From Candidatus Cloacimonadota bacterium (GTDB taxonomy: Bacteria; Cloacimonadota; Cloacimonadia; Cloacimonadales; TCS61): a stretch of DNA of 52,711 nt. The notes beneath the pieces were generated by a model that searched no databases, had not been told where the DNA came from, and saw only the letters and a program-made list of their open reading frames with translations. The position numbers and the translations under genes are program-made. Location: positions 1-52,711 of the forward strand of contig JAGLPW010000078.1 of the NCBI GenBank assembly GCA_023137125.1. The letters are read 5' to 3'. This document shows positions 1,182-33,161 of this stretch, in pieces (within the stretch, counting starts at the first letter, position 1; each line of letters opens with the position of its first letter).

Positions 1182-1182
1182 T

Positions 1183-1800
1183 ATGGCTTATTCTTTAAAT
1201 GTTATATACACTTCTTTCAAAAAGGAAGTTGAGGATTTGAATAGGATAATAATAGCTTTATCTGTTCAACAAGCTAGTATTGATAGAGATACCCATATTG
1301 AAGGATGCTTTATACGTTTTGTAGTATCATGGGAGGTATTTTGCGAAGAGTATTTCTTGAGGTGTTTATGTGTCGGGAAAACTAGATCTCAATATCAAAT
1401 AAAACCACATGTGACAAGTTCAAGAAATACAAATGAAGCATTTAAAAGAGCAAATTCAAGAAGAAGAGACAGAGCAAAAGATTATTTAGACTGGCTTGAT
1501 ACATCAATTATAAAACATAGAATACAAGATTATTTCAGGGCAAACTCAAGAGTACACAAAATTATTGAATCTCCTGATAAAATATATGAAATTCGTACTA
1601 TCAGAAATGCTATTGCACATAGATCCATAGCATCAATGTCTAAATTTGAGAAACATGTTAAAAATCAATTGGGATATTTGGCAATAATTAATCCAACTAT
1701 GGCAGACTTACTTATTATGAAAAAAAGAGGTCTAAACAAACATATATTCATTCTATTAAGTGAGTATTTTCTTGGATTAGCTGATAGACTAACAAAATGA
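1183..1800 (+). CDS. HEPN-domain protein (MAE_28990/MAE_18760-like), partner of DUF262
   Basis: A 205-residue, mostly helical, basic protein. Near the C-terminal third it carries RNAIAH (R141 to H146), the R-x4-H signature of HEPN ribonucleases, preceded by an acidic helix (residues about 130-140). An N-terminal stretch near residues 40-60 (FIRFVVSWEVFCEEYFLR) is typical of the MAE_28990/MAE_18760-like HEPN group, which often sits beside DUF262 genes. HEPN proteins usually cut RNA when released from inhibition. Here the likely model is a two-part system in which the DUF262 protein senses or restrains and the HEPN protein is the toxin; that division of labour is inference. It has no ribosome binding site of its own and starts one base after the upstream stop, which implies translational coupling. 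Confidence 0.75.
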   Translation: MAYSLNVIYTSFKKEVEDLNRIIIALSVQQASIDRDTHIEGCFIRFVVSWEVFCEEYFLRCLCVGKTRSQYQIKPHVTSSRNTNEAFKRANSRRRDRAKDYLDWLDTSIIKHRIQDYFRANSRVHKIIESPDKIYEIRTIRNAIAHRSIASMSKFEKHVKNQLGYLAIINPTMADLLIMKKRGLNKHIFILLSEYFLGLADRLTK

Positions 1801-2065
1801 TATTTTTTTGCGATTTATGAATAATTTAATAAAATTCTAACGAAGAAGAATGCATTGTAGCGAATTACAATATGTATAAGCTTTCGAAAATCGAATAACT
1901 TGACTAATAATTAAGATAAGATTTTTTGCAATTGAAATTGGAGTGAAAAGAAAATGAAATTAGTGAATTTGAATAATTTAGGAAATAAAAAAAGGTATTA
2001 TACAATTGTTTATTCCACTTCAAATGGCAGTGTAAGGACAATTAGTATAATTTTATTCTAAAATC
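1801..2065. other. Intergenic spacer between two defence modules
   Basis: 265 AT-rich bases separate the DUF262-HEPN pair from the methyltransferase operon. It holds a short perfect inverted repeat (ATTGTA, 6-base loop, TACAAT at 1854-1871) and a 35-codon open frame at 1954-2061 (listed separately). A TTGACT hexamer occurs near 1898, but I see no good -10 at the right distance. No terminator with a T-tract is evident. Confidence 0.4.
1954..2061 (+). CDS. Possible 35-residue leader peptide before the methyltransferase
   Basis: An ATG preceded by GGAGTGAAAAG opens 35 codons (MKLVNLNNLGNKKRYYTIVY at the N-terminus) and stops four bases before the methyltransferase ATG. The downstream gene has no Shine-Dalgarno of its own, so the short frame could deliver ribosomes to it. 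No family is recognised and the peptide may be functionless. The evidence is only start context, spacing and coupling geometry. Confidence 0.3.
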   Translation: MKLVNLNNLGNKKRYYTIVYSTSNGSVRTISIILF

Positions 2066-3424
2066 ATGAATATTGATTTAAAGATATTAAATACAAATGA
2101 AAAGCTTTCAAAATATTTTGTGGAAGAATACTCTATCAATGAGAAACCCATTTCTATAAGTTTTAGAAAATTGATACCTAAACTTAATAATAAAAATAAG
2201 TATACTCATCTAATTCATTCTTATCCTGCTAAACTTATTCCACATATTCCAAACTTCTTTTTGAATAATAATTATTTTTCAAAAAAAGAAGATCTTGTTT
2301 TAGATCCATTTTGTGGAACAGGTACCGTATTGTTAGAAGCTATGATTTCTGGCAGAAATGCAATAGGTGCAGATGCGAATCCATTAGCACAATTAATTAC
2401 TAAAGTTAAAACCACCTATCTCACAATTGAGATATTGGAATTATACTTCAAACTGATTATTAGTAGTTACAAGAAATTAAGAAAACCAGAAATTCCAGAT
2501 GTCATAAATAAAGATTTCTGGTTCCCTTTGGTAAATCAAAAGAAATTAGGACTTATTAAAAGAGCAATAAACAAAACTACAAACGGTGAAATTCAAGATT
2601 TCTTCTTAATTTGTTTTTCTAATTGTGTTAAAAAGGTTAGTTATGCAGACCCTATAGTAGCTGTGCCAGTGAAATTGAATCCTAAAAGATATCCTGAAGG
2701 TAGTTCTAAAAATATAAAGGCTATTAGAAGAATTAATAATATCAAAACTATTGATGTATTTGCATTATTCAAATCAATTTGTATTAATAATATGCATCGT
2801 ATAAATACTCTTCAAAATTTAAATAACAACATTAAAATTATTTCAAAAGATGCTCGGAAATTAACAAAAAGCTTAATAACAAACGAACTTATTAAAGATG
2901 AATCTGTCGATTTAATTATCACATCTCCACCTTATGCAGGTGCACAAAAATATATACGATCATCAAGTTTAAATTTAGGGTGGTTAGGTTTAGCCAAGTC
3001 AAATGAATTAAAATTATTAGATAAAAAGAATATTGGCAGAGAGAATTATACTAAAGGTGAATTAAAGAAAATTAAAACAGGTATATATAATGCAGATAAA
3101 CTATTAGAAAAAATTTATTCTATTAATAAACTTAGAGCATATATTGTTGGTAACTACTTGATAGAGATAATGTCCGCTTTAGATGAATCTATTCGTGTTC
3201 TAAAGAAAAATTCGTATTTAATCTTAATTATTGGAAACAATAAAGTGAGTAATTTTGAATTTAATACACAACAGTATCTAACTGAATATTTAGTTTCAAA
3301 AAAATTAAGCTTAAAATTTAAACTCATTGATGATATAAAATCTTATGGTCTTATGACAAAACGTAATAAAACTGCAGATATTATTTCAAGAGAATGGATT
3401 ATAGTATTCAAGAAACATATGTGA
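2066..3424 (+). CDS. DNA methyltransferase (N4-cytosine/N6-adenine type), first gene of a four-gene conflict operon
   Basis: A 452-residue SAM-dependent DNA methylase. The SAM-binding motif I is DPFCGTGT at residues 80-87, followed by an acidic DAN turn (residues about 104-106). The catalytic motif IV is SPPY at residues 287-290 (preceded by T). An N-terminal HSYPAKLIPHIP box is common in exocyclic-amino methyltransferases acting on DNA. Motif I precedes motif IV with about 200 residues between, room for a target recognition segment. SPPY favours N4-cytosine, though N6-adenine is possible. The operon has no obvious restriction nuclease, so the methylase may mark self DNA or modify a target for the ATPase/PRTase module. 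The next gene starts within ten bases of its stop. Confidence 0.85.
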   Translation: MNIDLKILNTNEKLSKYFVEEYSINEKPISISFRKLIPKLNNKNKYTHLIHSYPAKLIPHIPNFFLNNNYFSKKEDLVLDPFCGTGTVLLEAMISGRNAIGADANPLAQLITKVKTTYLTIEILELYFKLIISSYKKLRKPEIPDVINKDFWFPLVNQKKLGLIKRAINKTTNGEIQDFFLICFSNCVKKVSYADPIVAVPVKLNPKRYPEGSSKNIKAIRRINNIKTIDVFALFKSICINNMHRINTLQNLNNNIKIISKDARKLTKSLITNELIKDESVDLIITSPPYAGAQKYIRSSSLNLGWLGLAKSNELKLLDKKNIGRENYTKGELKKIKTGIYNADKLLEKIYSINKLRAYIVGNYLIEIMSALDESIRVLKKNSYLILIIGNNKVSNFEFNTQQYLTEYLVSKKLSLKFKLIDDIKSYGLMTKRNKTADIISREWIIVFKKHM

Positions 3425-3429
3425 AAACT

Positions 3430-4422
3430 ATGGCAAAAAAAAATTACGAGATCAGACCACTTAAAGAAAAATTAATGGACAAGATATTGATTTATTACTC
3501 TACCATCTGGAAGGATAAACTTGAAGAAAGTATTCACAAACAATGGTTAGCAAATTTCCATAGTAATAATAGAATTATTCATGAAAAAGAGCAATTAAAT
3601 GCTTTATATTTATTATCTAAATTTATGTATTTTGGAAATGCTGAATTACGAGAACTATTAAGATGCATATATAGAGATTTATATAAATATCCTATTATCG
3701 AAGAAATTAGAAAAAGTAATGGAAATACAATTGATCTTAAGTTTATTAAAGAGAAATTTGAAAAAGAAAAAGCAAAAACTAAATTTTTGGGAATTGGTAA
3801 TCCATCAGAAAGTGGCATTCATTTATTATACTATTTTAGACAAGAAAACAATCTAAGTAAAGAAATGTTCCTAAATACACATGAAATTTTCAGTATTGAT
3901 TTAGTTAAAGACAAAGATGAAAATGGTTTTGATCGAGAATACTTAAAATCAAAAGTTTCTAATACACAAATTCAGAGATATATATTTATAGATGATTTCT
4001 GTGGAAGTGGATCACAAGCAACTCTCTATTCAAAAAATATTGTTGAAAAAATAAAATCATTAAACCCTAATATTGAAGTTAACTATTTAGTTCTCTTCTC
4101 TACAGAACATGGTATGCAAGTAATAAAAGAAAGAACTAAATTTGATAATATAAAATCTGTTTTCACAATAGATGATTCTTTTAAATGTTTTTCTGATGAT
4201 TCAAGAATTTTTTCGAAAAAGGTTACAGGAATTGACAAAGATTTTACACAAGACTTTTGTTATAATTATGGTAAGAAGCTTTGGTGTTTTCATCCATTAG
4301 GTTTCCAAAATGGACAACTTCTATTAGGACTTTTCCACAATACACCAGACAATACTCTGCCAATTTTTTGGAGTGATAATAATAAATGGCAACCCATTTT
4401 TAAAAGGTATCATAAGGTTTAA
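3430..4422 (+). CDS. Phosphoribosyltransferase-like conflict-system protein (PRTase-CE type)
   Basis: About 330 residues from the ATG at 3430. A longer ATG at 3394 would overlap the methylase by 31 bases, and a GTG at 3421 would form a GTGA overlap with its stop; all three are in frame. The key segment is YIFIDDFCGSGSQA with D188-D189 followed by G192-S193-G194-S195. This is the strand-DD-loop layout of a type I phosphoribosyltransferase PRPP-binding site, with a GSGS loop where classical enzymes have TGGT. The N-terminal 130 residues are helical and lysine-rich. Proteins of this kind are known to me next to ORC/CDC6-like ATPases in predicted conflict systems (PRTase-CE). Whether it transfers phosphoribose, cleaves a nucleotide or only binds one is not known from sequence. 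Confidence 0.7.
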   Translation: MAKKNYEIRPLKEKLMDKILIYYSTIWKDKLEESIHKQWLANFHSNNRIIHEKEQLNALYLLSKFMYFGNAELRELLRCIYRDLYKYPIIEEIRKSNGNTIDLKFIKEKFEKEKAKTKFLGIGNPSESGIHLLYYFRQENNLSKEMFLNTHEIFSIDLVKDKDENGFDREYLKSKVSNTQIQRYIFIDDFCGSGSQATLYSKNIVEKIKSLNPNIEVNYLVLFSTEHGMQVIKERTKFDNIKSVFTIDDSFKCFSDDSRIFSKKVTGIDKDFTQDFCYNYGKKLWCFHPLGFQNGQLLLGLFHNTPDNTLPIFWSDNNKWQPIFKRYHKV

Positions 4423-4429
4423 TAATATT

Positions 4430-6490
4430 ATGGAAAATATAGTGTTGCAAAATCCATTTAGTATTACAAAAGCTACTGAATTTACAGATATTGAAATCAA
4501 TGATTACTGGATCAATTTTAGTTTTGGTGATGATAAAACGGTCTTTAATATGTTAAATCCTAATGAATTTATGCCAAAGTATATTTTAGGTGGTAAGGGA
4601 TGCGGCAAAACTCATTTACTAAGATATTTTTCATTTCCTTTACAAATGATACGCTATAATAATGATCCTAGTAGAATTCTATCTGAGGACAAATATATAG
4701 GTATATATTCTGTATTAGATGGTTTAGATTCATCCAGATTCGCAGGTAAAGGAATTGATGATAACATCTGGAATAACCTTTTTGAATATTATTTTGAACT
4801 TTATATTTGCGATAACTTATTGAATATAATTAATAATATCTTTTCGAAAATTTCTATTGATAAATCTAATGAAACTGAAATTGTAAACGACATAAAAGAC
4901 TTATTTCACAATAATGTTGATTGTATCCATGATTTTCCATCAATTATTGAATACTTAAAAACACTCAGAAGAAATATTGACTCAGAAATTGTTAATGCAC
5001 CATTTACACGTAAATTAAATTTTGATTTGGTTAAAATTTCCTTTTCACCTGGTGATTTAATCTTTGGCATTCCAAAAATACTAAGCAATGTTATTAAGGA
5101 TTTTAAAAAAATAAAATTTATCTATATATTAGATGAATATGAAAAATTTTATAAATCGCAAAAAATATTTGTGAACTCGCTAGTTTTTGATAAAAAAACT
5201 CCTTGCACTTTTTGGATTGGCTCACGCAAATATGGTTTTTCAACTCAAAACACAAAATCTGATGAGCCCATTAGACCAGGATCTGAGTTTCAACCTATTG
5301 AATTAGATGCTTATTATAGGAGAAACGAAACTCACTATAGGGATTTTGCAAAAAACTTATTTATAAATAGATTAGTGAAATTTTATGAAGAAAAAAACTT
5401 AAAATTAGATAAAAATGAAGTAGAAAAACGGTTTATTGAAAAGTTTGTGAAGTACACGGATGAAACTATAATAAACAAATTAAAAGAAAAATATCCTAGT
5501 GGTAATTATCCACATATAAAAAATCTTAAAAAGAGTTTAGAGTCTGGTTTCAAAAAGAAATGCGTATATGGAGTTATAGAAAGAGATAGTTTAGATTATA
5601 TTGTTGAATCCCTCAAACAACTGACTAACAATAATCCATTGTATCAAAAGTACAAAATATTCCTATTTTATCAAAAATGGAATAAAGCAAATACGACATC
5701 AAACTTACTTAATTTTGTTGATGAAATAAATTCTCAATTTAATCTTTTCTTAGCTGAGAAACCCAGTGTTTTTGATAAGATTCAGGAAAAATTTAAATTA
5801 GATTTTATAGTTCAATTAGCTTCTGAAAATAAATTAAGAAATACTTATTATTCAGGAATTGATAATTTCATAGATCTTTCTTGGGGTAATCCAAGAGTAC
5901 TTTTATTAATCCTGAAAATAACTATAGAAAAATCTTGGCTCCGTGGAGAGAATCCTCTTAGTGATGGTTCAATGATTTCTCTCGAGTCACAGTTTCAAGG
6001 TGTTTTTGAAACTGCTAAATGGTTTTTTGAAGATGCAGAAATCATTGGGGTAAGAGGGAAAAATATTTATAAATCAATTTATAATTTGGCTGATTTATTC
6101 CGTCTATATCGGTTTTCAGACAAACCACCAGAAACCTCTGTTTCTTGTTTTAGCTATAGGCAAGAATTATTATCTGAACAAGCTGAAGATTATATTAGTG
6201 AATCTGTGCTTCATTCACTAATAATTGAGATAGAAAGTGGAAGAAAAGAAAAAAATTCTGGAAGAAAAGAAAAAGTTTATCAAATTAATAAAACTATTGC
6301 TCCATTATGGAATTTACCAACAAGTAGAAGAGGTATCGTTTCTTTAAATAAGGAAATACTTGAATCTATTTTTAATCCAGAATTTCATGATAAATTTAAT
6401 AGTTTATTGAAGAGAAAAAAAAATACCCTAAATGCTCCATTTTGTAGTATAATAAATAGTAATTCCCAAACTACACTATTTGACACTTAA
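4430..6490 (+). CDS. ORC/CDC6-like AAA+ P-loop ATPase of the conflict operon
   Basis: 686 residues from ATG 4430, which starts eight bases after the upstream stop, has AAGG twelve bases before it and gives the conserved-looking opening NPFSITKATEF. An ATG at 4373 would overlap the PRTase gene by 50 bases and adds 19 unconvincing residues. Walker A is GGKGCGKT (residues 54-61); Walker B is ILDEYEKF with D235-E236. This matches the ORC-CDC6-like STAND/AAA+ group that sits beside PRTase-CE proteins. After the ATPase core comes a long helical region (about 300-560) with winged-helix-like segments near the C-terminus. An in-frame 21-base tandem repeat (6238-6274) encodes two SGRKEK units. It is the likely NTP-driven sensor or switch of the operon. 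Confidence 0.75.
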   Translation: MENIVLQNPFSITKATEFTDIEINDYWINFSFGDDKTVFNMLNPNEFMPKYILGGKGCGKTHLLRYFSFPLQMIRYNNDPSRILSEDKYIGIYSVLDGLDSSRFAGKGIDDNIWNNLFEYYFELYICDNLLNIINNIFSKISIDKSNETEIVNDIKDLFHNNVDCIHDFPSIIEYLKTLRRNIDSEIVNAPFTRKLNFDLVKISFSPGDLIFGIPKILSNVIKDFKKIKFIYILDEYEKFYKSQKIFVNSLVFDKKTPCTFWIGSRKYGFSTQNTKSDEPIRPGSEFQPIELDAYYRRNETHYRDFAKNLFINRLVKFYEEKNLKLDKNEVEKRFIEKFVKYTDETIINKLKEKYPSGNYPHIKNLKKSLESGFKKKCVYGVIERDSLDYIVESLKQLTNNNPLYQKYKIFLFYQKWNKANTTSNLLNFVDEINSQFNLFLAEKPSVFDKIQEKFKLDFIVQLASENKLRNTYYSGIDNFIDLSWGNPRVLLLILKITIEKSWLRGENPLSDGSMISLESQFQGVFETAKWFFEDAEIIGVRGKNIYKSIYNLADLFRLYRFSDKPPETSVSCFSYRQELLSEQAEDYISESVLHSLIIEIESGRKEKNSGRKEKVYQINKTIAPLWNLPTSRRGIVSLNKEILESIFNPEFHDKFNSLLKRKKNTLNAPFCSIINSNSQTTLFDT
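6238..6274 (+). repeat. 21-base tandem repeat inside the ORC-like ATPase gene
   Basis: The 16-base unit TGGAAGAAAAGAAAAA begins at 6238 and again at 6259, a 21-base period. In frame it encodes two SGRKEK units separated by N. Copy change would add or remove seven residues without shifting frame. Two units only, so it may be incidental. Confidence 0.5.
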
Positions 6491-6495
6491 CGATT

Positions 6496-7428
6496 ATGGA
6501 CTATTCAATTTTATATAAAGAAAGTTTTTCATATGACAAAATTAGTAGTATCTCTAAATATGATTTATATATATCAGCTTATGATAATTGTGATAGGACA
6601 AAAAAAGTATATACAAAAATTAATTCTAAAGAAAAAAAATGGATAATATTTCCACATTATAAGAGTTTAAAAAAACATGAATTGCCACTTAAAGGAAATT
6701 ATATTAGTGATCAATATAAAGAAGATGAATTTTACTTAAAATTTATTGATGAATGGAACTATTCTTCTGATATTAAACTTTGTGTAGATATTACTGGTTT
6801 TATTCGACCGCATTTATTATATCTAATTAGATTCCTATCAATTAAAGGATTCAAAAAAGTGGATTTTTTGTATACTGAACCCAAAAGATATAAAGATGCT
6901 GATGAAACTACTTTCTCAGGTTTTATCGATAATATCAGAACAATTGAAGGTTATAGCTCAATGTTTAGAAATCCTAATACTAATAATGATATATTGATAA
7001 TTACTGCAGGTTATGATGACAATTTGTTGGCAAAAATAGCACAAAATAAAAATCAATGCAAAAAAAGATATTTCATTTTAGGTTTCCCATCTTTACAGCC
7101 TGATATGTATCAGGAAAGTATTATTAAAATCGAAAATGCTAAAGAATCAATAGGTGAAAACAAAATATTGAAATTTTCTCCTGCAAATGATCCATTTGTT
7201 ACTGCTCAAATAATTAGTGAAATAATCAATGATAATCCAGATGCTACCAATATTTACCTTAGTCCTTTGTCAACAAAACCACAATCAATAGGAATTGCTC
7301 TATATTTTTTATGGAACTTTAAAGAAAAACCAATAAGTGTAATTTTCCCTTTTAGCAATACATACTCAACAAAACATGCAATAGGCATACAAAGGATTTG
7401 GAAATATACTTTTGAATTTCCTATATAA
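6496..7428 (+). CDS. Unrecognised two-domain Rossmann-like protein, last gene of the conflict operon
   Basis: 310 residues, no enzyme motif I can name. The N-terminus has a DLYISAYDNCDRTKKVY strand-loop-helix. A central segment, LCVDITGFIRPHLLYLIRFL (near residues 94-113), looks like a nucleotide-binding strand-turn-helix and recalls the NxTGG turn of CARF-type domains, though GG is missing. A second alpha/beta half (residues about 160-305) holds ILIITAGYDD and IYLSPLSTKPQSIG. The gene follows the ATPase stop by five bases and ends the unit. Position suggests it is the effector or ligand sensor of the system, which is inference. It has no signal peptide or membrane segment. Confidence 0.6.
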   Translation: MDYSILYKESFSYDKISSISKYDLYISAYDNCDRTKKVYTKINSKEKKWIIFPHYKSLKKHELPLKGNYISDQYKEDEFYLKFIDEWNYSSDIKLCVDITGFIRPHLLYLIRFLSIKGFKKVDFLYTEPKRYKDADETTFSGFIDNIRTIEGYSSMFRNPNTNNDILIITAGYDDNLLAKIAQNKNQCKKRYFILGFPSLQPDMYQESIIKIENAKESIGENKILKFSPANDPFVTAQIISEIINDNPDATNIYLSPLSTKPQSIGIALYFLWNFKEKPISVIFPFSNTYSTKHAIGIQRIWKYTFEFPI

Positions 7429-7717: not shown

Positions 7718-7853
7718 AAAATGACAAACCGCTGCAACTTTTTATATTCATTTTATAATGTCTTTGGTGTTGGTAAACTCATTGAGTCATTACTTCACAA
7801 GCACCAAATATAGATTTTAACGGCTCATCGTATTTAATATGCTAAATACTGAT
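7718..7853 (+). repeat. Direct repeat, upstream copy (pairs with 14,699-14,811)
   Basis: The core 7718-7785 matches 14,699-14,767 over 68-69 bases, by eye at roughly three quarters identity. It begins AAAATGACAAAC(C/T)GCTGCAA, includes CTTTGGTGTT(G/A)GTAA and ends CTCATTGA. After a variable stretch, a second block around TGCTAAATA matches again. The two copies have the same orientation and enclose the STAND, unknown and HEPN genes. A 17-base version of the first motif also lies at the left end of the transposon at 28,897. Confidence 0.6.
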
Positions 7854-8109: not shown

Positions 8110-11100
8110 ATGATAGTAACTTTTTCCTTAATTATTAATGTAATTCAAGCTGGATTATGGTCAAAAAAAACAGTTAAAGCAATTTTAGACAAAGCCTCAG
8201 GATTTGATAAAGCAACTAAAGATATGATGAAAGCTTATAAAAAGGCTTTTAATATTGTAATGCCATTAAAATGGAAAGAATTAACTTTTATTGATCAAGA
8301 GACAGATGAACATTATAAAGCAAATGATATTGAATTGATTTGTCAGATTCTAATATACATGGAAAATCCAGAAAATTTTAATAAAGTGTTTAAACAACAA
8401 CCTGATTTGCCAAACGAACTATTAAATGTATCAGAGGATGTATATCTTCAACTAAAAGATGAATTCGAAAAAGAAATTGCAAATACAGAATCAATCGCTT
8501 TCATAATTCAAGAACTGATAAAATTATCAAAAGTAATACTATCTTTGAATAATGTTGTGCAAAAAATTGAAATTGAATTACAAAATTCTACAATTACTGA
8601 ACCAATACAAACTGTTGATCAGATTTTGGAATCATTCAAAGATGCCTCTTTAGCATTAAGTTCTATTCCAAATGAAATTAACAAGATAACTCTTTGCAGG
8701 AATGAAACAAAAGACTTACTATCTTGGATTGCTAACCCCGTTTCAAGCAACAATAAAGAAATATGCCTTCTAATTGGCAAAGCAGGATATGGGAAGAGTG
8801 TAATTCTTAGAGAGCTCTATGAAGCTCTTCTATCACAAAAAATGCCTGTTTTCGCTTTAAAAGCTGACATGAAGGAAGCTATTTGCCTAAATGAATTATC
8901 ACAAATTTTAGGATTTAAAACATCGATTAAATCAGTAATTCAAATGGCACAAAAGTATTTTGAGAAAGTAATAGTAATTATCGACCAAATAGATGCATTA
9001 TCACAGTATATGTCTAAAGACAGAAAGTTTTTGAATTGTTATTTAGAATTGATTTTACAATTAAGTAGTATGAAAAATGTAAGACTTGTTATTTCATGTC
9101 GTGAATTTGATCTTGCGTATGATCGTTCTCTTAATTCGATTAAATTTGATAAAAAAATAAAAGTGGGTCTTTTAGGTGATGAAGAAATAAATCAAGTGTT
9201 AAAAGTATTTAATACTTCTCTCACAGACTTATATCCTAAAATTCAAAAAATTATTAAAGTTCCCAACAATTTATATCTGTTTTGTAAAGTATTTCAGTAC
9301 AGAATAGACCTAAAAAAAATAAAAACACCTTACAATCTTTTTAATGAATTGTGGAAAAATGAAATCGTTATAAACAAAGATAGAAATGTAAGTAACAGAA
9401 AACCTGAATTATTATACAGATTAGCAAACGAGATTACTAAGAAATCAGCATTGTGTTTAACGAGATCTCCCTATTTTGATGAATATGATTATGAAATTAA
9501 TGAATTAGCATCCGATGGTATACTAAAATGTGAGTATAATAAATTATCCTTTTACCATTCCTCTTTTTATGATTACTGTTTTGCAAGAAGTTTCATTAAA
9601 GATAATAAGAGCCTAATGAATTATATTCTCTCTACCGATCAAGGTTTGTTCATAAGATCACAAATCAAATTACTTATTCATTATCTAAGAGATGTTGATT
9701 CAAAAAGATATTTTTTTGAAATCGAGGAAATAATAAATAGTAGTGAAATTAAATTTCATATAAAACTATTAATTTTAGAGCAAATTGGATATTGGGACAA
9801 TTTATTTACAGAAGAAAAGCAAATCATCTTGAGCGCAATTAAAAATGATGAAATCTTAGAAATCCACTTTATTGATTCCCTATTCTCAAAGCAATGGTTA
9901 GAATATCTAGTTAACAATAAGATCATAGAAAACTGGCTTAATTCAGGAAATGAAAACCTAATTAATCATGTCAATAATAAACTGATGGGATTAATTAATA
10001 ATTATCCTGATCTTATCATAAAAGTTTTGAAATTATATCCTAATGTTGAAAACAAAGAAATTGAAATTCTGAAAATAATTTATTACTTAGATAATTGGGA
10101 GAATTCAGAATATTTTCAAATGGTTAAACCACTTTTATCAAATCCTAAAAACTATAATAGTAGAACTTCAGGATATTTATTAAAAAAAATTTCAAAATAT
10201 AAACAAATTGAAACTGCTAAACTATTATTTACCCACATTAATTTACGAATTGGTCAAATTAAGAAGAATGCAATTGAGAGGGAAATATTAAATTATGAAG
10301 AGTTTGACATTCTTGAATACTTAATAACCCATAAAAAAAGCCAAAAATATGTTATTAGAAACTCTTTAAAAAGTTTTAACCTTCTAATAAATAAAACCCA
10401 TTGGGCTGACAAAACTGGTTTAATTAATGATAGAATTTTTGATCATCGTTATCATTACAAGGATTTTCTTTACAAGCATTGGCATTGGCTTTCAATGATT
10501 GAAAATGAATTACAAAATATTGCCCAAATCGATTCAAAGTATTTTGAAGATTTAATTTTAAATCTTACTGAAACAAAATCCATAACTTTATTAGAATTAC
10601 TTCTAAAATGCTACTTAAAAAATATTCCCTGTTATATAAACAATATCTATTCATTGATTACAAAAAAATATATCTTAAAATCATATGGTATGTTAAGTTA
10701 TTATGTAAAAAAAAGTATTCATGAAACATTCAATTATTTGGATTCTGAAAAACAAAAAACATTTTTAGAAATAATAACTTCACTAACTGATGATAGAGAA
10801 ACAGATTTATTAAAAAATTGTATTAACAGAAGACGAACTGCTAAAATGCAGAAAGTGGGTTATTCCTATTATAATCCTGTAGGAAGAGTAAAGCATGAAT
10901 TATTATCTTCAATTCCAAGTTCATACATTAATAATAATCTTTGGATTAAGAAAACATTGGATGAGTTAAATCGAAAGTTAGGAAATTACAAAATCTTAAA
11001 ACCTAAACCTGGTGAGTCAGGAACTGTAACCGCACCTTTAGAAAACATAGCTTATCAGAAAATGAGTAAGATGCAATGGTATAACTCTATGCTTAAATTT

Positions 11101-12438
11101 GATGAAACATATGATTCTTTTTCTTCTAGAAGAGGTTTTTTAAAAGGTGGTATGATTGAACACTCACGTGCTTTTGGAAATGTTGTACAAAAGAATCCTG
11201 ATATGTATTATGATTTTATTATTGATATCGGGAGAGATGATATTATAAATATGCAATATTTTGCAGAAGGAATTAGAGGTTTGGTTTCTAGCAATATTGA
11301 AGATAAGAAACTATATTCATTAGTTCTAGAATTCTATAAAATGAAGCATCGCTATATTCGAAATCAAATGATTTCAGTAATTGATAAATTACTTAAGGTT
11401 AATGAAAAAGAAGAATTAATTAACATATTAAATTATTATTTAAATTCAAAAACAGATGAAGTAGAAGAAAGCTGGGAAAATGGAAATTATGGAAGCTCTC
11501 CTTTAACTTCAGGAATTAATTCCATAAGAGGATCAGCGGCATGGTCATTATCCCAAAACACTTTTACAACAAAATTTCCAGAACTTATATTCTCAATTTT
11601 TGAGAAAATAGCATCAGATGTTTCTGTTTCTTTAAGATGTTGTTTAATGAGTTCATTACATGGTTTAATTAATCATGATAAAGAAAGAACATTAAAACTA
11701 CTATTCGCATTAACTTCAGACAATAATAAACATGTGATTTCAAATAGTATTTTTTCAATTTACTATTTAATGAATGAGTATTTTGATGAGTTGAAAAGTA
11801 AAATTTTAATTATCACCCAAAAAGAAAGTACCCTTGTGAATAATTTGGGTAAAAACTTAGGAAATTTGCTTATGAGTGCTTATTGGTGGGAGTTAAATGA
11901 CAGCCAAGCTTTACTAATAAATAGTTGCGAGAATAACCTTGAAGTCACTAAAGGTGTCATTGAAGCCTCATCAAAACATTTGAACAATCCTGACCAAGTT
12001 ATTGCTAAGAAATCTGTTGAGGTTTTTAGTCTGTTTTTCCATCTAGATGATAAGGATATTTCTTCGACGTATGATTGGTGTTTTCATGACATTGATGTTA
12101 ACTCTTTTAATGATAATTATGAATTATTTAGAGAATATTCAAATACAACATTAATTACTTACAATTCAACGCATTTTTTAAAATATCTTTTAAAAGTTAC
12201 ACCAACAGATCCGGATAATGTTTTTGTTTTAATTAAAGATTATAAACGTTATGAAAAACCTGATTTGAGTTATAATGCTTTAAATAAAGAATTAGTAGAA
12301 ATAATCATTAATATTTACAACTATTCGAAAAGTAAAACAATTAAAAATGATACTATTAATATTTTTGATGAGATAATGCAAGATGATAATTATAAATTTA
12401 GAGCCATGCAAGCAATATCTGATTCAGATAGACTATGA
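8110..12438 (+). CDS. Large STAND/NACHT-like NTPase with helical-repeat C-terminus (Avs-like architecture)
   Basis: A 1442-residue protein. Residues 1-180 are a helical N-terminal region of unknown function. The NTPase core has Walker A GKAGYGKS (223-230), Walker B VIVIIDQID with D292, and a sensor-like RLVISCREFDL strand near 325-335, as in STAND ATPases. From about residue 470 to the end it is helix after helix (HEAT/ARM or TPR-like), a likely recognition solenoid. This order (effector-like N-terminus, STAND NTPase, repeat sensor) is that of Avs antiphage proteins, which oligomerise on binding a phage protein. I cannot assign the effector domain, so membership in a named Avs type is not claimed. 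It is a one-gene unit flanked by repeats, with AAAGGTAG before its ATG. Confidence 0.7.
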   Translation: MIVTFSLIINVIQAGLWSKKTVKAILDKASGFDKATKDMMKAYKKAFNIVMPLKWKELTFIDQETDEHYKANDIELICQILIYMENPENFNKVFKQQPDLPNELLNVSEDVYLQLKDEFEKEIANTESIAFIIQELIKLSKVILSLNNVVQKIEIELQNSTITEPIQTVDQILESFKDASLALSSIPNEINKITLCRNETKDLLSWIANPVSSNNKEICLLIGKAGYGKSVILRELYEALLSQKMPVFALKADMKEAICLNELSQILGFKTSIKSVIQMAQKYFEKVIVIIDQIDALSQYMSKDRKFLNCYLELILQLSSMKNVRLVISCREFDLAYDRSLNSIKFDKKIKVGLLGDEEINQVLKVFNTSLTDLYPKIQKIIKVPNNLYLFCKVFQYRIDLKKIKTPYNLFNELWKNEIVINKDRNVSNRKPELLYRLANEITKKSALCLTRSPYFDEYDYEINELASDGILKCEYNKLSFYHSSFYDYCFARSFIKDNKSLMNYILSTDQGLFIRSQIKLLIHYLRDVDSKRYFFEIEEIINSSEIKFHIKLLILEQIGYWDNLFTEEKQIILSAIKNDEILEIHFIDSLFSKQWLEYLVNNKIIENWLNSGNENLINHVNNKLMGLINNYPDLIIKVLKLYPNVENKEIEILKIIYYLDNWENSEYFQMVKPLLSNPKNYNSRTSGYLLKKISKYKQIETAKLLFTHINLRIGQIKKNAIEREILNYEEFDILEYLITHKKSQKYVIRNSLKSFNLLINKTHWADKTGLINDRIFDHRYHYKDFLYKHWHWLSMIENELQNIAQIDSKYFEDLILNLTETKSITLLELLLKCYLKNIPCYINNIYSLITKKYILKSYGMLSYYVKKSIHETFNYLDSEKQKTFLEIITSLTDDRETDLLKNCINRRRTAKMQKVGYSYYNPVGRVKHELLSSIPSSYINNNLWIKKTLDELNRKLGNYKILKPKPGESGTVTAPLENIAYQKMSKMQWYNSMLKFDETYDSFSSRRGFLKGGMIEHSRAFGNVVQKNPDMYYDFIIDIGRDDIINMQYFAEGIRGLVSSNIEDKKLYSLVLEFYKMKHRYIRNQMISVIDKLLKVNEKEELINILNYYLNSKTDEVEESWENGNYGSSPLTSGINSIRGSAAWSLSQNTFTTKFPELIFSIFEKIASDVSVSLRCCLMSSLHGLINHDKERTLKLLFALTSDNNKHVISNSIFSIYYLMNEYFDELKSKILIITQKESTLVNNLGKNLGNLLMSAYWWELNDSQALLINSCENNLEVTKGVIEASSKHLNNPDQVIAKKSVEVFSLFFHLDDKDISSTYDWCFHDIDVNSFNDNYELFREYSNTTLITYNSTHFLKYLLKVTPTDPDNVFVLIKDYKRYEKPDLSYNALNKELVEIIINIYNYSKSKTIKNDTINIFDEIMQDDNYKFRAMQAISDSDRL

Positions 12439-13738: not shown

Positions 13739-14638
13739 ATGATTGATATTAAACAACTCTCTGATATACCGCTAACCGTACATGATAATGTGCATCATGA
13801 AGAGCAATTAGAGACTCTCAAAGATAATGAAATATTAATTTATCTTGTTGTTGGTGGAGTTAAAATTGTATTAATGGATGGTAGCGAGATTGAACTACCA
13901 AAATATTCTTACACGATAATACTTAAGAATATAAAGAAGGATGGAAAGGTACTAACATTTAAACATTTAGAACGATTAACTACACTATTGGCATATTCAT
14001 ATGGTGAGCCAAGAAACCATGTTTTTAGATTCTATATCAAAAATGAATCCTTTTCTTACCCAATTTTTAGAATATCCGGAGATTATCATCCAACAACTGG
14101 AATGTTTATAACTGCTCTCAGAGTGAAGAATATAGAAGAGTGCTGGAAGAATAAAAAGAAACTATTTCTCTTTATGGTAGAGAAGTTTTCTTCTTTAGAA
14201 AAGGAGCAATTACCATATCTTTGGTTCGGTAGAGCTATATTAACAAATAATAATATAGATAGGTTTTTGAACCTATACAGAATAATTGAATTACTTGCTA
14301 TAGAATATTCACATTCTATTTCTTCTGAAATAAAGGAGCAATACTGGGAATCACTTTCTATTGGATCAAAAGAAACAAGTGTGCAAAAATATTACAATAT
14401 GTTCAGAATACCATTAAGAGAGAGATTACCATTTTATCTTGAAAGCCATAATATTAGTACATCTAAATTTAATAAATGGAGGAAACTAAGGAATAAGATA
14501 ACCCACGGAGATCTATATTTAGAGACAGAAGAAATATTTCGTAAAGAACTTGCAGAGCTCGCGAAATTTACTAGTATAATATTAAGAAATATGTTATCAA
14601 ATAAATACGGATTTAAGATTACAAAACAATGCATATGA
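13739..14638 (+). CDS. HEPN-domain protein, ApeA-like
   Basis: A 299-residue protein with a C-terminal HEPN domain. A helix FLNLYRIIELLA (near residues 177-188) is followed by KLRNKITHGDLY with R251-x4-H256, the catalytic R-x4-H signature. The N-terminal 150 residues are beta-rich, as in ApeA-type proteins whose N-terminal domain is thought to sense phage and whose HEPN domain then cuts RNA. That similarity is by layout, not by a confirmed match. The start is fixed by GGAGGT eight bases before the ATG. It is a single-gene unit between intergenic repeat B and the downstream copy of the 7718-type repeat. Confidence 0.65.
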   Translation: MIDIKQLSDIPLTVHDNVHHEEQLETLKDNEILIYLVVGGVKIVLMDGSEIELPKYSYTIILKNIKKDGKVLTFKHLERLTTLLAYSYGEPRNHVFRFYIKNESFSYPIFRISGDYHPTTGMFITALRVKNIEECWKNKKKLFLFMVEKFSSLEKEQLPYLWFGRAILTNNNIDRFLNLYRIIELLAIEYSHSISSEIKEQYWESLSIGSKETSVQKYYNMFRIPLRERLPFYLESHNISTSKFNKWRKLRNKITHGDLYLETEEIFRKELAELAKFTSIILRNMLSNKYGFKITKQCI

Positions 14639-15238
14639 CAAATATGTCTGCGGTTGTATTAGCTGTTCGTTTCTGTTAGATAGTTCTAATCTATCATAAA
14701 AATGACAAACTGCTGCAATTTTTTTAATTTCAACCTATTTTGACTTTGGTGTTAGTAAGCTCATTGAAGCGTAGCTTTTAAAATAATTCAATTTGCTAAA
14801 TAGTAATGGATCAGTTCTATTTTGTTTTTTAATAAAAATATTCTTACCATTAAACTTCCTTTTTAAATGTACTTACCGAATACAAAGATCATATTTTCAT
14901 CTCAAAATCTAATCTTCAAAACTAATTAAGTTGACAATTATTTTTCTTATTTGTCTTTTCACCACTGCATGCTCAAATCCGTAAAAAATTTGTAAAACTC
15001 GAATAACCAAAGAGCATTTAAGTATTAATAATTTTAAAAACTTTTAGGAAGTAAAGAACAATGAGATTGGATTTTTTAAATGTTTATAATAGCAGCTTTA
15101 GCAAAAAATGAATAAGAATAATTGTACTTACAAAAGTAAAATCTTATCAAATAAATATTACTTATATTTTATTGAGCAATCATATATAAACCAGATGATT
15201 ATGAATTAATACTAATCAATACAAAATAAAAATATTGG
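14639..15238. other. 600-base spacer at the downstream end of the defence island
   Basis: No intact gene is visible on either strand. The first 60 bases have a weak resemblance to copies A and B (ATGACAAATATGTCTGCGG beginning). Bases 14,699-14,811 are the downstream direct-repeat copy. Minus-strand codons over about 14,740-14,870 include a short protein-like patch related to the remnant at 7834-8046. The rest, to 15,238, is AT-rich and probably holds the promoter for the exported-protein genes that follow. Confidence 0.5.
14699..14811 (+). repeat. Direct repeat, downstream copy (pairs with 7718-7853)
   Basis: It starts AAAATGACAAACTGCTGCAA, contains CTTTGGTGTTAGTAAG and CTCATTGA, and after a shorter variable part has TGCTAAATAGTAATGGAT. 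It marks the far edge of the block that carries the STAND, unknown and HEPN genes. After it, gene content changes to exported proteins. Confidence 0.6.
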
Positions 15239-28881: not shown

Positions 28882-28967
28882 TATGAATATTGTTACAAAA
28901 TGACAAACTGCTGACAGTTTTAATATGTAATCAAAGAATAGTTGACCTTAAAATTTTCTACACCTGT

Positions 28968-29615
28968 TCAACTACTTTTTCTAGTTTGATTACCATTGTA
29001 GTTTTCTCTTCTATTAATCAATAATATTGTTGTCTGTATTTGACGTCTTTCAGATAAGTTGATTATTTCAACATTAGTTAGATCATCGACATTAGGAACT
29101 TCAAAGTTTCCTTTGTAACATATTTGCTCTAGATCTCTTATTATGGCTGGTCTTTTTGAATGTTTTATAATTCGAGGATATTCATCAAAAGATCTACCTG
29201 AAGGTTTAAATACTTTCTGGTAGTATCTTCCTCTATGTTTCCTAATACATTCATCATGAAGCAAGATCTTAATATATCTCCAAACAGTTGACTCACTGAA
29301 TGAAAGAGTATTCACTACATCTGCAACTCGATGTAATAAACCGATCTTATCATAAATGATCCTCAATTTTTCAATTTGCGGTGTAAAGTTTAGAGGATTT
29401 GTTTTTTTTGTAGCTTTTGAATTTCGAACATACCTGTAGAATCTTGGAGTATTAGAATCATGTATTACAATGATCCTTCCTTGTTCATTAAATTTTGAAA
29501 CGTTCTCCGAAACTGTTGAATAAGGAACTCCTGTGATCTGACTGATCTCTCTGATACAGAAAGGTCTGTCTATTTGTACTATATAGTTCTCAATTAACTT
29601 TCTTTTCGGAAGCAT
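28968..29615 (-). CDS. Double winged-helix DNA-binding protein of the transposon
   Basis: 215 residues. Residues about 15-60 (FCIREISQITGVPYSTVSEN) and about 95-135 (VADVVNTLSFSESTVWRYIK) each form a helix-turn-helix with a following basic wing (GRIIVIHD, KHRGRYYQK). The C-terminus is basic. AGAGGT precedes the ATG, and the gene overlaps the ATPase gene by 26 bases, so the three minus-strand genes are one operon. It could be a target-site or end-binding accessory factor, as in Tn7-like and Mu-like elements, or a second regulator. No TnsA-type nuclease motif is visible. The exact role is unknown. Confidence 0.65.
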   Translation of the reverse strand: MLPKRKLIENYIVQIDRPFCIREISQITGVPYSTVSENVSKFNEQGRIIVIHDSNTPRFYRYVRNSKATKKTNPLNFTPQIEKLRIIYDKIGLLHRVADVVNTLSFSESTVWRYIKILLHDECIRKHRGRYYQKVFKPSGRSFDEYPRIIKHSKRPAIIRDLEQICYKGNFEVPNVDDLTNVEIINLSERRQIQTTILLINRRENYNGNQTRKSS

Positions 29616-30297
29616 TACTACCTCTGATAATAGTATTTTCTAATTCAGGGATATATGAAACGAATTTTCTTAGATCTCCATCGGTCTCTTTGTATATCTC
29701 TTCAATGATCTTATGATCTAAAGGTACCTCTGCAACTTCCTTACAAATCCTCTTAACATCTTCTAAGGTGTTCTTCTCGAACTTGAAGAAGAAATTACAC
29801 CTGCCAAAGAAGTGAGGGTTATAGTTATTGAGTGCGTCTACAGTATCTTGTTCACCGATCATGACAATAGATGCAAATGATCTGTCCGTCAGATCTCTGA
29901 TTACTTCTAGAATATCCCATTCTCTCTTATGGATTTTATGATTGATCTCATCGATGAATAAAACAATTTCAGGATTCTCCTGCAGTAATTTGATACACAT
30001 TTCCTCGATTTTAAAAGCTGTTCCTTTCATGACGAATTCCTCTCCGTAGATCAACCAATGCAATCTTCGATATATCTCTTGAACAAAAGCCTTCTCACGT
30101 TGTAAACGACTAATCCTCATATAGCCCCAACCATTACGAAATGCAGTCATTTCACTCCAGCGAGTTTTTCCGAATCCGGTTGGTCCATAAACTACAGCTA
30201 ATCCGGGAACTTCTGTTTTTGGTCTCTTAAGAAGTTTATAAACCAGCTTATTAACTTCTTTAACATTATAAGTCTCTACTAATATTCTCTCTCTCAA
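29590..30297 (-). CDS. MuB/TniB-like AAA+ transposition ATPase
   Basis: 235 residues. Walker A is GPTGFGKT (about 39-46), Walker B is IVLFIDEIN (about 114-122) and a sensor strand IVMIGEQD follows. Length and motifs fit the MuB/TniB/IstB-type ATPases that select target DNA and activate the transposase. The start is a TTG whose last two bases overlap the transposase TGA stop (TTGA); GGAGG eight bases upstream supports it. Coupled translation should give a set ratio to the transposase. It lies directly after the transposase, as in Mu and Tn5053-type elements. Confidence 0.8.
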   Translation of the reverse strand: MRERILVETYNVKEVNKLVYKLLKRPKTEVPGLAVVYGPTGFGKTRWSEMTAFRNGWGYMRISRLQREKAFVQEIYRRLHWLIYGEEFVMKGTAFKIEEMCIKLLQENPEIVLFIDEINHKIHKREWDILEVIRDLTDRSFASIVMIGEQDTVDALNNYNPHFFGRCNFFFKFEKNTLEDVKRICKEVAEVPLDHKIIEEIYKETDGDLRKFVSYIPELENTIIRGSNASEKKVN

Positions 30298-32603
30298 TTT
30301 AATATCCTCCTTTTAGCAGGTATCCCTCTTTCTTTTTTTAATCTGGCCATGAGCTCTTTAGCTCTTAATTCTCCAGGATCAACTTCAATTGCTTCTTCTT
30401 CATTTTCTATACGCTCTAAAGCTAATTTATCTAACATGGAAGTAACAGGACGTGGATTTTTGGGTTTGTTGACCTTCTTAGATTTGATCTTTTTATTCTT
30501 AACGATCTCCAATTCTGAACTGCTGTTCTTATGTATGTCTTTTATTTTATTATCTATTCTCAATGACTCTTCTGCAAGTAAGTTGTTATTCGCATTTATG
30601 TAAGCTTGATCAATATTAGATGGTCTTAATTTATTTGTTAATCCTCCCTGCTGGATAATTTCAAAATAAACAGCCTTATTCTGCTTCTCATAATAGTTTC
30701 TTGCGTGAATGGCATCAGCGGTCATTATCTTATTAGTTTGGCTTCCATATTGCACAATATGAGCTTTACCCTCTAGTAGTTTACCATCAATAGTTGCTAT
30801 ATGAATTGAATGAAGATCACGTACATTGTATATTACTTGAACTTCAGTATTAATAAATGCTTCAAAAGAAGGATGTCTGTAGAGATTACCCATTAACTCG
30901 ATCTGTTTTCCTCTCAATTTTAAGGTTTTACGTGCAGAAAGTTTTAAGAACATCTCTTCTTCAGATAGCTTTTTCAAGGGATATTGAGAACTGTAATCCA
31001 GGTAATACTCTTTAGCACTTAGATCATTCAGGTTTTTACGTTTAGTATTATTCCATTTCTCAATGTGTTCATCGAGAGCTCCTAAAAATTGCTCCCAGTT
31101 TAATATCTTATCTCCATACTTTCTCATAAGTAGATGATTTGTCATATGCATAGCTTCGGGACGTTGTTCAGGTGTCTTGCCTAAGTAGGTTAGTTGATCT
31201 TTTTCGAATTCATCAAAGATCTTATGATTGTAAGGCTCTATTTTCTTGGCTTGCGGATTACCGGGTGTTGTCCAGACCACACGTTCTACACCAATATCTT
31301 CAAAGAAACCAGGATATCCGGAATTCAAGTATTTAATAGCTGTTCTTTTACTAAGTGTATCATTCTTTTTCTTAGCATAATACTCAGGATCAGTTTGTAC
31401 ATTATGAAACGATCCGGCATTATCTGTCATGATGCCTTTAGGCACACCAAATCTTTCGACTGCATGACTAAATGAACTGATCACTACATCGAACCGTTCA
31501 GAGTATGAAGCTGCGTATCCAGTGATCAATTCTGTCGCTGTATCCAACCAGTAAACTACTACGGGCCTTAATAGAATTCGTTTAGATCGATCAGGATGCA
31601 AATGATAAGGAGAATAGACCAGGAATTTATTCACATACCCATCAGATATCCAAAGATCACCCGGATAAGCATCATTGATCCTGGGTACATAAGAGGAGAT
31701 CTTCTTAACTGCTTTCTTCCCTCTAACATGAGCATACAAAGATCTGTTCTGTGACATGACCACATTATTTATAAATTTATGGATCGCATCATAAGAAGGT
31801 GTTGCCTGACCAAAGAACTCTTGAGTTTTATTGTGTATTTGTCTGTATGTATAATTATTGCGATGCATAACTAATTTGACAATGTAGATCTTCATATCCT
31901 CTGACCAGGTTCTTTTCCTTCCACACTTATCATGATTATCACAGAGGACTGCTATATTCTCTTTTGCATCTTTCCACATCTTGAGCCACTTTTTAATGAC
32001 CGTAAGAGAGATAATATGTTGTTTCCTATTATTCAACAGTTGATCTGGAGTAGTATCAAATTTACCGAGTGTTTTGAGTTGATCTATCAAGATAAGTTTT
32101 TGATCTAAATCTCTTTGGAACTGTACATCGACAACACGCAGCATGATCCCATTCTTTTTGGCTATGTCTCTACGATCAAGATATGTTTTAATTATGATCT
32201 CTTTGGCAAAAGCTCTTCTCTTGGGTCTATCAGAATATTTTGAAAATTCAGCAGATATCCCTACTATCTCTTTTCCGATCCCATGCTTATCATAAAGATA
32301 CATCTTCCATTTCTGCTGATATTCAACTGGAAGACTGTATACATTGATGAAAGTCTTCAAACCACCTGCAGGTTTCTTGACCGTAATGGACTGAATACGA
32401 TTCTGTTTAATTCTTTTTTGAATTGTCTGTCGGGATAAGCCTGAAAGGTTTACAGTGGTTTTAATATCGATCCAATCATTTGATTCTTCTAATTCGTTAA
32501 TGTCATAAGAACTTATACCACTATCCTCAGTTTCCGATATCTTTACAGTGGGATATACAGTGCATTGTAAACTTTTCTTCTTATCTCCTTTTATCCTTGA
32601 CAT
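30294..32603 (-). CDS. Mu-like DDE transposase (MuA/TniA family)
   Basis: 769 residues from the ATG at 32,603, chosen because AGGGGG lies ten bases upstream; an upstream ATG at 32,699 would add 32 residues running through the promoter. An N-terminal winged-helix of MuA type (NDWIDIKTTVNLSGLSRQTI) is followed by a second HTH region, then the RNase H-fold integrase core with acidic residues D321 (WISDGY), D394 (MTDNAG) and probable E456 (KKIEPYNHK). The wide second D to E gap (61) is Mu-like rather than the 35 of IS3-type enzymes. A Mu C-terminal beta-barrel follows (about 550-610), then a charged tail that should contact the ATPase. No frameshift is visible, so the element may be active. Confidence 0.85.
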   Translation of the reverse strand: MSRIKGDKKKSLQCTVYPTVKISETEDSGISSYDINELEESNDWIDIKTTVNLSGLSRQTIQKRIKQNRIQSITVKKPAGGLKTFINVYSLPVEYQQKWKMYLYDKHGIGKEIVGISAEFSKYSDRPKRRAFAKEIIIKTYLDRRDIAKKNGIMLRVVDVQFQRDLDQKLILIDQLKTLGKFDTTPDQLLNNRKQHIISLTVIKKWLKMWKDAKENIAVLCDNHDKCGRKRTWSEDMKIYIVKLVMHRNNYTYRQIHNKTQEFFGQATPSYDAIHKFINNVVMSQNRSLYAHVRGKKAVKKISSYVPRINDAYPGDLWISDGYVNKFLVYSPYHLHPDRSKRILLRPVVVYWLDTATELITGYAASYSERFDVVISSFSHAVERFGVPKGIMTDNAGSFHNVQTDPEYYAKKKNDTLSKRTAIKYLNSGYPGFFEDIGVERVVWTTPGNPQAKKIEPYNHKIFDEFEKDQLTYLGKTPEQRPEAMHMTNHLLMRKYGDKILNWEQFLGALDEHIEKWNNTKRKNLNDLSAKEYYLDYSSQYPLKKLSEEEMFLKLSARKTLKLRGKQIELMGNLYRHPSFEAFINTEVQVIYNVRDLHSIHIATIDGKLLEGKAHIVQYGSQTNKIMTADAIHARNYYEKQNKAVYFEIIQQGGLTNKLRPSNIDQAYINANNNLLAEESLRIDNKIKDIHKNSSSELEIVKNKKIKSKKVNKPKNPRPVTSMLDKLALERIENEEEAIEVDPGELRAKELMARLKKERGIPAKRRILN

Positions 32604-32635
32604 TGTATAACCCCCTAGATTAATAAATTCGTCTA

Positions 32636-32698
32636 TGAATACGAGACATGAATATGCATGTGGTGAATAAGTGTCAAGCAGATTATTCATTACATTCA
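32636..32698. promoter_or_regulatory. Operator cluster between transposase and repressor genes
   Basis: Five TGAAT half-sites lie in 63 bases: TGAATAC 32,636, TGAATAT 32,649, TGAATAA 32,664, and in inverse orientation TTATTCA 32,683 and ACATTCA 32,692. The sites at 32,664 and 32,683 form a perfect 7-base inverted repeat with a 12-base spacer. The sites overlap the transposase promoter, as expected for the XRE repressor encoded next to them. Confidence 0.55.
32649..32677 (-). promoter_or_regulatory. Promoter of the transposase operon
   Basis: On the minus strand TTGACA (32,672-32,677) is a perfect -35 box, and TATTCA (32,649-32,654) sits 17 bases downstream as a weak -10. Both the -10 and the spacer carry TGAAT operator half-sites, so the repressor could block polymerase. 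The transposase ribosome binding site and ATG (32,603) follow at a normal distance. Confidence 0.55.
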
Positions 32699-32720
32699 TA
32701 AGTTGCTAAAAGGTGGAGTG

Positions 32721-33032
32721 ATGAAAACTTTCAAACAAAGATTAGTATATCTTAGGAAAACAAAGCATTATTCCCAACAATATGTTTCTGATTACACTAA
32801 GTTAAGTCAGTCTAATTATTGTAAATATGAAAAAGGACGAGTTGAGCCCAGTTTATCTTTTATTGAAAAAATAATTAAATTATATGATGTCGATGCTAAT
32901 TGGTTAATAAAAGGTATTGGTGATATTCCTTATTCTGAAGAAGAAACTAACAATTCGAATTCTGATCAACGAACATTATCGACTCGTATAGAAAAACTAG
33001 AGAAGAAAATAGAAGGATTAATAAAGGAGTAA
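32721..33032 (+). CDS. XRE-family (cI/C-like) repressor of the transposon
   Basis: 103 residues from ATG 32,721, preceded by AGGTGGAG; an ATG at 32,703 would skip that site. Residues about 5-60 are an XRE helix-turn-helix (RLVYLRKTKHYSQQYVSDYT, then LSQSNYCKYEKGRVEPS). A short linker leads to a lysine/glutamate-rich C-terminal coiled-coil segment (LSTRIEKLEKKIEGLIKE) that should dimerise. It is divergent from the transposase operon across a TGAAT operator cluster, the arrangement of the Mu c repressor. It most likely keeps transposition low. Confidence 0.8.
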   Translation: MKTFKQRLVYLRKTKHYSQQYVSDYTKLSQSNYCKYEKGRVEPSLSFIEKIIKLYDVDANWLIKGIGDIPYSEEETNNSNSDQRTLSTRIEKLEKKIEGLIKE

Positions 33033-33161
33033 AATGGGAAAAAAGTTAGATTTTGCTCTAACTATAGCCGATTTCTTGCAGTATTCATACAATAATTCGC
33101 ATTTTTCGCATTTTATTTAATTATCAAAATAGGCACGTAACATTATATGGGATAAAACATT

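Follow-up and report, generated by a model that had tools for sequence, protein, structure and literature searches.

A four-gene block in the draft genome of a Candidatus Cloacimonadota bacterium is probably a Mu-type transposon in which only the early region of a Mu-like phage is left, with a repressor, a transposase (A), an ATPase (B) and a winged-helix (wHTH) protein (C). We found the block at positions 28968-33032 of the window, by which we mean the whole 52,711-nucleotide stretch of DNA analysed here, taken from a genome (G000) available as a draft of 2.93 Mb in 199 contigs with 86% completeness. The genes for TnpC, TnpB and TnpA lie on the minus strand and an XRE-family gene on the plus strand, all four frames being open, and the element spans at least these positions. 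An intact second copy in the same genome, purifying selection on the genes and the nesting of the transposase in a phage-bearing clade make its description as a stripped Mu-type transposon, already put forward in an earlier note on this DNA, well supported.

Gene content and control region

TnpA (30294-32603, minus strand, 769 aa) is a Mu-type DDE transposase that starts at an ATG with a Shine-Dalgarno-like GGGGG stretch. It matches the Pfam families DDE_2 (Mu transposase, 9.5e-8) and Mu-transpos_C (2e-6), both above cut-off, as well as the PHROG_310 transposase family (8.7e-64), and among solved structures its family profile finds the Mu transpososome 4fcy (1.7e-12). The catalytic residues D321, D394 and E456 are unchanged in seven relatives. 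The four genes, their strands and overlaps and the catalytic triad agree with the earlier note.

TnpB (29590-30297, minus strand, 235 aa) is a TniB/MuB-like AAA+ ATPase with the motifs GPTGFGKT (Walker A) and VLFIDEIN (Walker B). It matches Pfam TniB (9.6e-8, above cut-off) and PHROG_296, a DNA transposition protein family; the best matches of TnpA and TnpB together are to Mu families and TniB, not to IS21 families. Ahead of the TTG start of TnpB stands AGGAGG, and the start shares the letters TTGA with the TnpA stop; both this junction and the AGGAGG are also kept in the second copy, on contig C175. Together, these observations confirm the proposal of a MuB/TniB-like ATPase read from a TTG start and coupled by TTGA.

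TnpC (28968-29615, minus strand, 215 aa) overlaps TnpB and matches Pfam TrmB/HTH. Its predicted fold is a wHTH (H-H-H-E-E) over the N-terminal 60 residues, with a pLDDT of 89-96 in the first 50, and the C-terminal half is predicted with low confidence, so that the N-terminal domain alone is reliable. Hence, the double winged helix claimed previously finds partial support, for its N-terminal domain (Pfam and model). A Foldseek search with the model returned generic wHTH regulators and centromere-binding proteins, none at E < 0.001. The gene need no longer be called unassigned, as it had been, since the wHTH gene found behind B in Cloacimonadota Mu-like phages is its homologue. In several relatives, this gene encodes 209 aa (L141), 172 aa (L142), 177 aa (L127) or 104 aa (L140), and gp16-like and DUF3164-like genes come next. 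Because its place after B is kept in phages and in two stripped lineages, TnpC likely takes part in transposition or early control; most likely it would be a protein of phage origin that binds DNA as an accessory factor or an early regulator, and a target selector is possible.

The fourth gene (32721-33032, plus strand, 103 aa) is divergent from TnpA, and its matches to Pfam HTH_3 (7e-10) and to PHROG transcriptional repressors bear out its reading as an XRE repressor. Between the window and C175 copies 76 of 103 residues are identical (76 of 104 columns counting the stop). The 117-bp divergent region (32604-32720) carries ATGAATA/TATTCAT half-sites, and in the C175 copy, where the region measures 113 bp, a perfect inverted repeat of 16 bp, TAGTCATATATGAATA / TATTCATATATGACTA, occupies the same place. 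As in Mu, where operators lie between divergent promoters, these are likely operators of the repressor. Predicted intrinsic terminators and sigma-70 promoters inside the block were as numerous as in shuffled sequence.

The direct neighbours of the block are a gene for a beta-helix secreted protein on one side and an M1 peptidase gene on the other. As the earlier note had stated, phage structural genes and TnsA are lacking: no phage structural gene, TnsA or TniQ/TnsD turned up among the four genes and the neighbours covered by Pfam scans, which are part of the window's genes. Portal_Mu had no match anywhere in G000, where a phage elsewhere in the genome could be absent from an assembly that is 86% complete and in 199 contigs. 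A search for the Mu capsid family PF10124 also gave no match and missed known phages too, which makes this marker uninformative. There was no Rfam match within the window, and the element, consisting of the four genes only, has no Cas effector or CRISPR array; the nearest CARF gene is ~21 kb off. The element has these features of the Mu-type class: a MuA-family DDE transposase, an AAA+ ATPase as operon partner and a divergent repressor gene with operator-like sites, to which binding is predicted. Among the genes scanned, there are no head, tail or portal genes as in a transposable phage, no TnsA or TniQ/TnsD as in Tn7-like elements, no Cas effector or CRISPR array as in Mu-type CASTs and no best matches to IstA/IstB of the IS21 family.

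Farther away in the window, positions 150-7428 hold a defence-like cluster read in one direction (DUF262/NsnA-like, type II methyltransferase, PRTase (III-A), ORC-CDC6-like and CARF6 proteins). A 1442-aa NACHT-like NTPase (PDC-M54A-like) is encoded with two smaller genes at 8110-12438, between two copies of the repeat described below.

A second copy and relatives in phages

By searching G000 for the transposase, we found the window element, the 82% copy on C175 and two distant elements on contigs C189 and C44. All four genes recur on C175 with order and strands unchanged, and the DNA of this copy is 82% identical to that of the window over 4.08 kb. The identity ends within the 3' part of TnpC on one side and approximately at the XRE stop on the other; the flanks are unrelated, with no common sequence outside the genes. 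The dN/dS values between the two copies (0.16 for TnpA, 0.05 for TnpB and 0.23 for TnpC) indicate that the module was kept functional, in line with the claim that all frames are intact. Judging from the 40-59% of synonymous sites that differ, the copies may be two old arrivals instead of one jump within the genome. Other insertions had been proposed as a means of defining the ends and the target duplication; the intact C175 copy is such an insertion, but neither could be derived from it. Peptide patterns found no close copies in viral and genome contigs, and profile searches found relatives near 30% identity only. Adjoining the C175 copy, a dGTPase-like gene (L005 2991-4502) is split into two frames and may be broken.

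The two transposases differ unevenly. Residues 311-640 (catalytic and C-terminal) are 92-99% identical, whereas residues 1-70 are only 42% and residues 201-310 are 68% identical. If residues 1-70 and 201-310 are DNA-binding parts, as their counterparts in MuA are, ends and operators would be expected to differ between the copies, and this could be why their flanks do not match.

The profile search located TnpA relatives with 28-33% identity, some in draft genomes of Cloacimonadota and others in three IMG/VR records. Portal_Mu is present on the three virus records (VR140, VR141 and VR142) and on the prophage contigs G044:C71 and G104:C148, and the portal-bearing records preserve, wholly or in part, the gene order XRE-A-B-(wHTH)-gp16-like. 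In a midpoint-rooted TnpA tree, the window pair is nested inside the portal-bearing phage clade (support 100/100), its nearest neighbour, G055, being weakly supported (89/93). Stand-alone copies of G106, a genome that also has a portal gene, fall in the other half of the same clade, beside G104 and VR141. The simplest reading of this topology is that particle genes were lost at least twice; the reverse direction, from transposon to phage, is formally conceivable. The earlier note had held that phage genes within the same element in other genomes would speak against a transposon: relatives at ~30% identity do stand beside a portal gene and the 82% copy has none, a pattern that fits descent from a phage, not a present-day phage.

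Flanking repeat, ends and target duplication

At 28898-28921 (plus strand) lies a copy of a 22-24 bp intergenic repeat, AAATGACAAACTGCTGACAGTTTT; it follows the stop codon of the beta-helix gene by 79 bp, is separated from the TnpC stop by 47 bp and could be target DNA or a transposon end site. The repeat, AAATGMCAAACYGCTGMMACTTTT, has 25 copies in G000 versus 0 for the reversed control. Its sites are at 7719-7742, 14700-14723 and 28898-28921 of the window and on contigs C44, C70, C109, C163, C189 and C196, and it is nearly confined to this genome, with 19 of the 20 copies found among 123 genomes of the phylum. Copies are intergenic, often in sense direction 3' of genes for type-IX-secreted proteins, two of them beginning at the last codon and stop of such a gene; they also form tandem arrays with a spacing of 30-36 bp. 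In three of the four Mu-like elements of G000, the repeat occurs within 6-44 bp from the TnpC stop, pointing inward (p ~0.004 for each, compared with windows drawn at random from these repeat-rich contigs). The window element has an inward site on the left side only, and at the C175 copy the best site is weak (score 3.1, p 0.016) and on the opposite side.

On the right, the stretch 33083-33114 (minus strand), which is either flank or right end, is ~88% like a single other place in the genome, the repeat array of C109. There, the 32-bp stretch and the repeat stand in the order and orientation expected of the window flanks without the element. This order, together with the lack of a clear site at the 82% copy, makes us lean towards target DNA rather than end sites. 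The opposite assignment, in which the flank repeats are transposase-binding ends and the solitary repeats are relics or small non-autonomous elements, is possible but doubtful. It would explain why the sites nearest the TnpC stop point inward. It would also fit a 160-bp repeat array common to C189 (8369-8528) and C44 (1839-1998), 79% identical and next to TnpC or a TnpC relic, and a repeat site joined at C189 8516-8566 to ~33 bp matching the TnpC 3' end region. However, the elements that share the site have TnpA proteins no more than 15-16% identical to the window's TnpA, the 82% copy is without a clear site, and many repeats are sense-oriented just after genes and far from any transposase.

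At C189 (L119/L006, 8369-8566 versus 13888-13938), the matching TnpC gene is 5.3 kb off with two secreted-protein genes between, and array and fragment would be left over either from a second element end or from a rearrangement. Adjoining the C44 element (L007 7098-12209) are a candidate defence gene (PDC-S06) and two genes that resemble QueC (judged by eye from the sequence) and OGG, after which comes a repeat copy; these neighbours are possibly cargo.

The ends had been placed at 28891 and 33142, on the basis of the tips TGTTAC (28891-28896) and GTAACA (33137-33142). This assignment fails, as chance explains the 6-bp match: 3 TG-started 6-mers are common to both flanks versus 0.54 expected, and 7- and 8-mers are at chance level. 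No 5-bp target duplication adjoins the tips, the outside 5-mers being AATAT and TTATA. Nothing convincing emerged when all end pairs with 4-9 bp duplications were considered in the four Mu-like elements of G000, nor did flank alignment of the four elements yield ends. The minimal transposon with defined borders is therefore supported in its gene set, its borders being putative. No clean empty site was found in the genus, where the left gene has no orthologue and the M1 peptidase orthologues have a different upstream region, with a divergent gene whose start is groEL-like in several relatives (judged by eye). Immediately upstream of one of these orthologues and in the same orientation, at a contig end (L070, G102:C166 ~10650-10682), ~30 nt match the TnpB 3' end; perhaps an orthologous insertion was deleted here, or the match is an artefact of assembly.

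Ends borrowed from the multi-copy relative G106 were rejected, its copies being internally deleted and its ends unlike those of the window. Four loci of G106 (L036 6653-6703, L038 6164-6213, L039 6745-6795 and L040 5444-5494) have one and the same 51-bp sequence, attached each time to another internal point of the transposase gene, as if one end had repeatedly fused to truncated copies.

Since the two close copies share no sequence outside their genes, their ends may have been lost. The block would then be a decaying and immobile remnant: what is left of the left part of a Mu-like prophage after deletion of its late genes and ends. The nesting of the window TnpA among phages, the want of ends and target duplication and the unrelated flanks of the two copies are all compatible with such a history, which we nevertheless consider unlikely: two separate copies have the same four genes, no frameshifts and strong constraint, strongest for the ATPase (dN/dS 0.05), and independent remnants should keep different pieces. 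Finally, the element could direct itself to the dispersed repeat, always in one orientation and with TnpC choosing the target as TnsD does for Tn7. Such self-targeting would agree with the inward repeats of three of the four elements and with a repeat nearly confined to G000 and often in sense direction 3' of genes, but is very improbable, given the weak site on the other side of the C175 copy, TnpC homologues in Mu-like phages, which are not known to use fixed targets, and repeats that may be end sites instead. If true, it would mean protein-guided safe-site targeting in the Mu branch by a winged-helix protein unrelated to TniQ/TnsD.

Proposed mechanism and known systems

For the reading that we prefer, a Mu-type transposon reduced to a phage early region, the following mechanism can be proposed. 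The XRE protein would sit on operators in the divergent region and keep both promoters off, as c does in Mu. When repression fails, A, B and C would be made from one coupled operon. TnpA would bind near the ends, build a transpososome, nick the 3' strands and join them to target DNA, while TnpB, like MuB/TniB, would capture the target and activate TnpA. Without a TnsA-like second nuclease, Mu-type products would be expected, that is strand transfer followed by replication or repair.

The closest systems are the Cloacimonadota Mu-like phages (L140, L141 and L142; G044:C71 and G104:C148). Like the element, they have the transposase, the ATPase and usually the wHTH gene in one early operon, an XRE repressor where the contig covers that part, and a TnpA of the same clade; their contigs also bear a Mu portal gene and further phage genes, which the element and its C175 copy do not have. 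The early region of Escherichia phage Mu (c, ner, A, B), although very distant in sequence, has a divergent repressor, the DDE layout and a target-capture ATPase, and 4fcy is the best solved relative. In contrast to phage Mu, the element has no ner, kil or gam, an XRE-type repressor, ~4.1 kb instead of 37 kb and no particle genes.

Among transposons, Tn5053/Tn402 (TniA, TniB, TniQ) and Tn7 also combine a Mu-family transposase with an AAA+ ATPase, whereas in the element no TniQ, TniR, TnsA or cargo was found and XRE and wHTH genes are present instead. IS21 (IstA, IstB) likewise has a transposase-ATPase pair without phage genes; unlike it, the element has a TnpA matching Mu families and two further DNA-binding genes. 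Mu and IS21 encode relatives of TnsB and TnsC, and in the Mu clade of the TnsC tree a conserved gene is operonised with MuB (PMC10293859). Mu transposons with acquired CRISPR systems have been described, with an HTH gene in a figure legend (PMC11656645). Compared by description, these Mu transposons and Mu-type CASTs (I-A, V-F; PMC11656645) resemble the element in carrying Mu-type genes on transposons and an HTH gene, and the element differs from Mu-type CASTs in having no CRISPR and no cargo. A literature search of limited range found no cargo-free four-gene Mu-type form with an XRE repressor. Mu-type transposons as such are thus already known.

In this little-studied phylum, a Mu-like early region would have lasted by itself, as an element of four genes kept by purifying selection, and this bears on the direction of traffic between transposable phages and transposons. 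The wHTH gene after B appears tied to the core module, as it has been retained though all particle genes are gone, and it probably has a role in transposition or its control.
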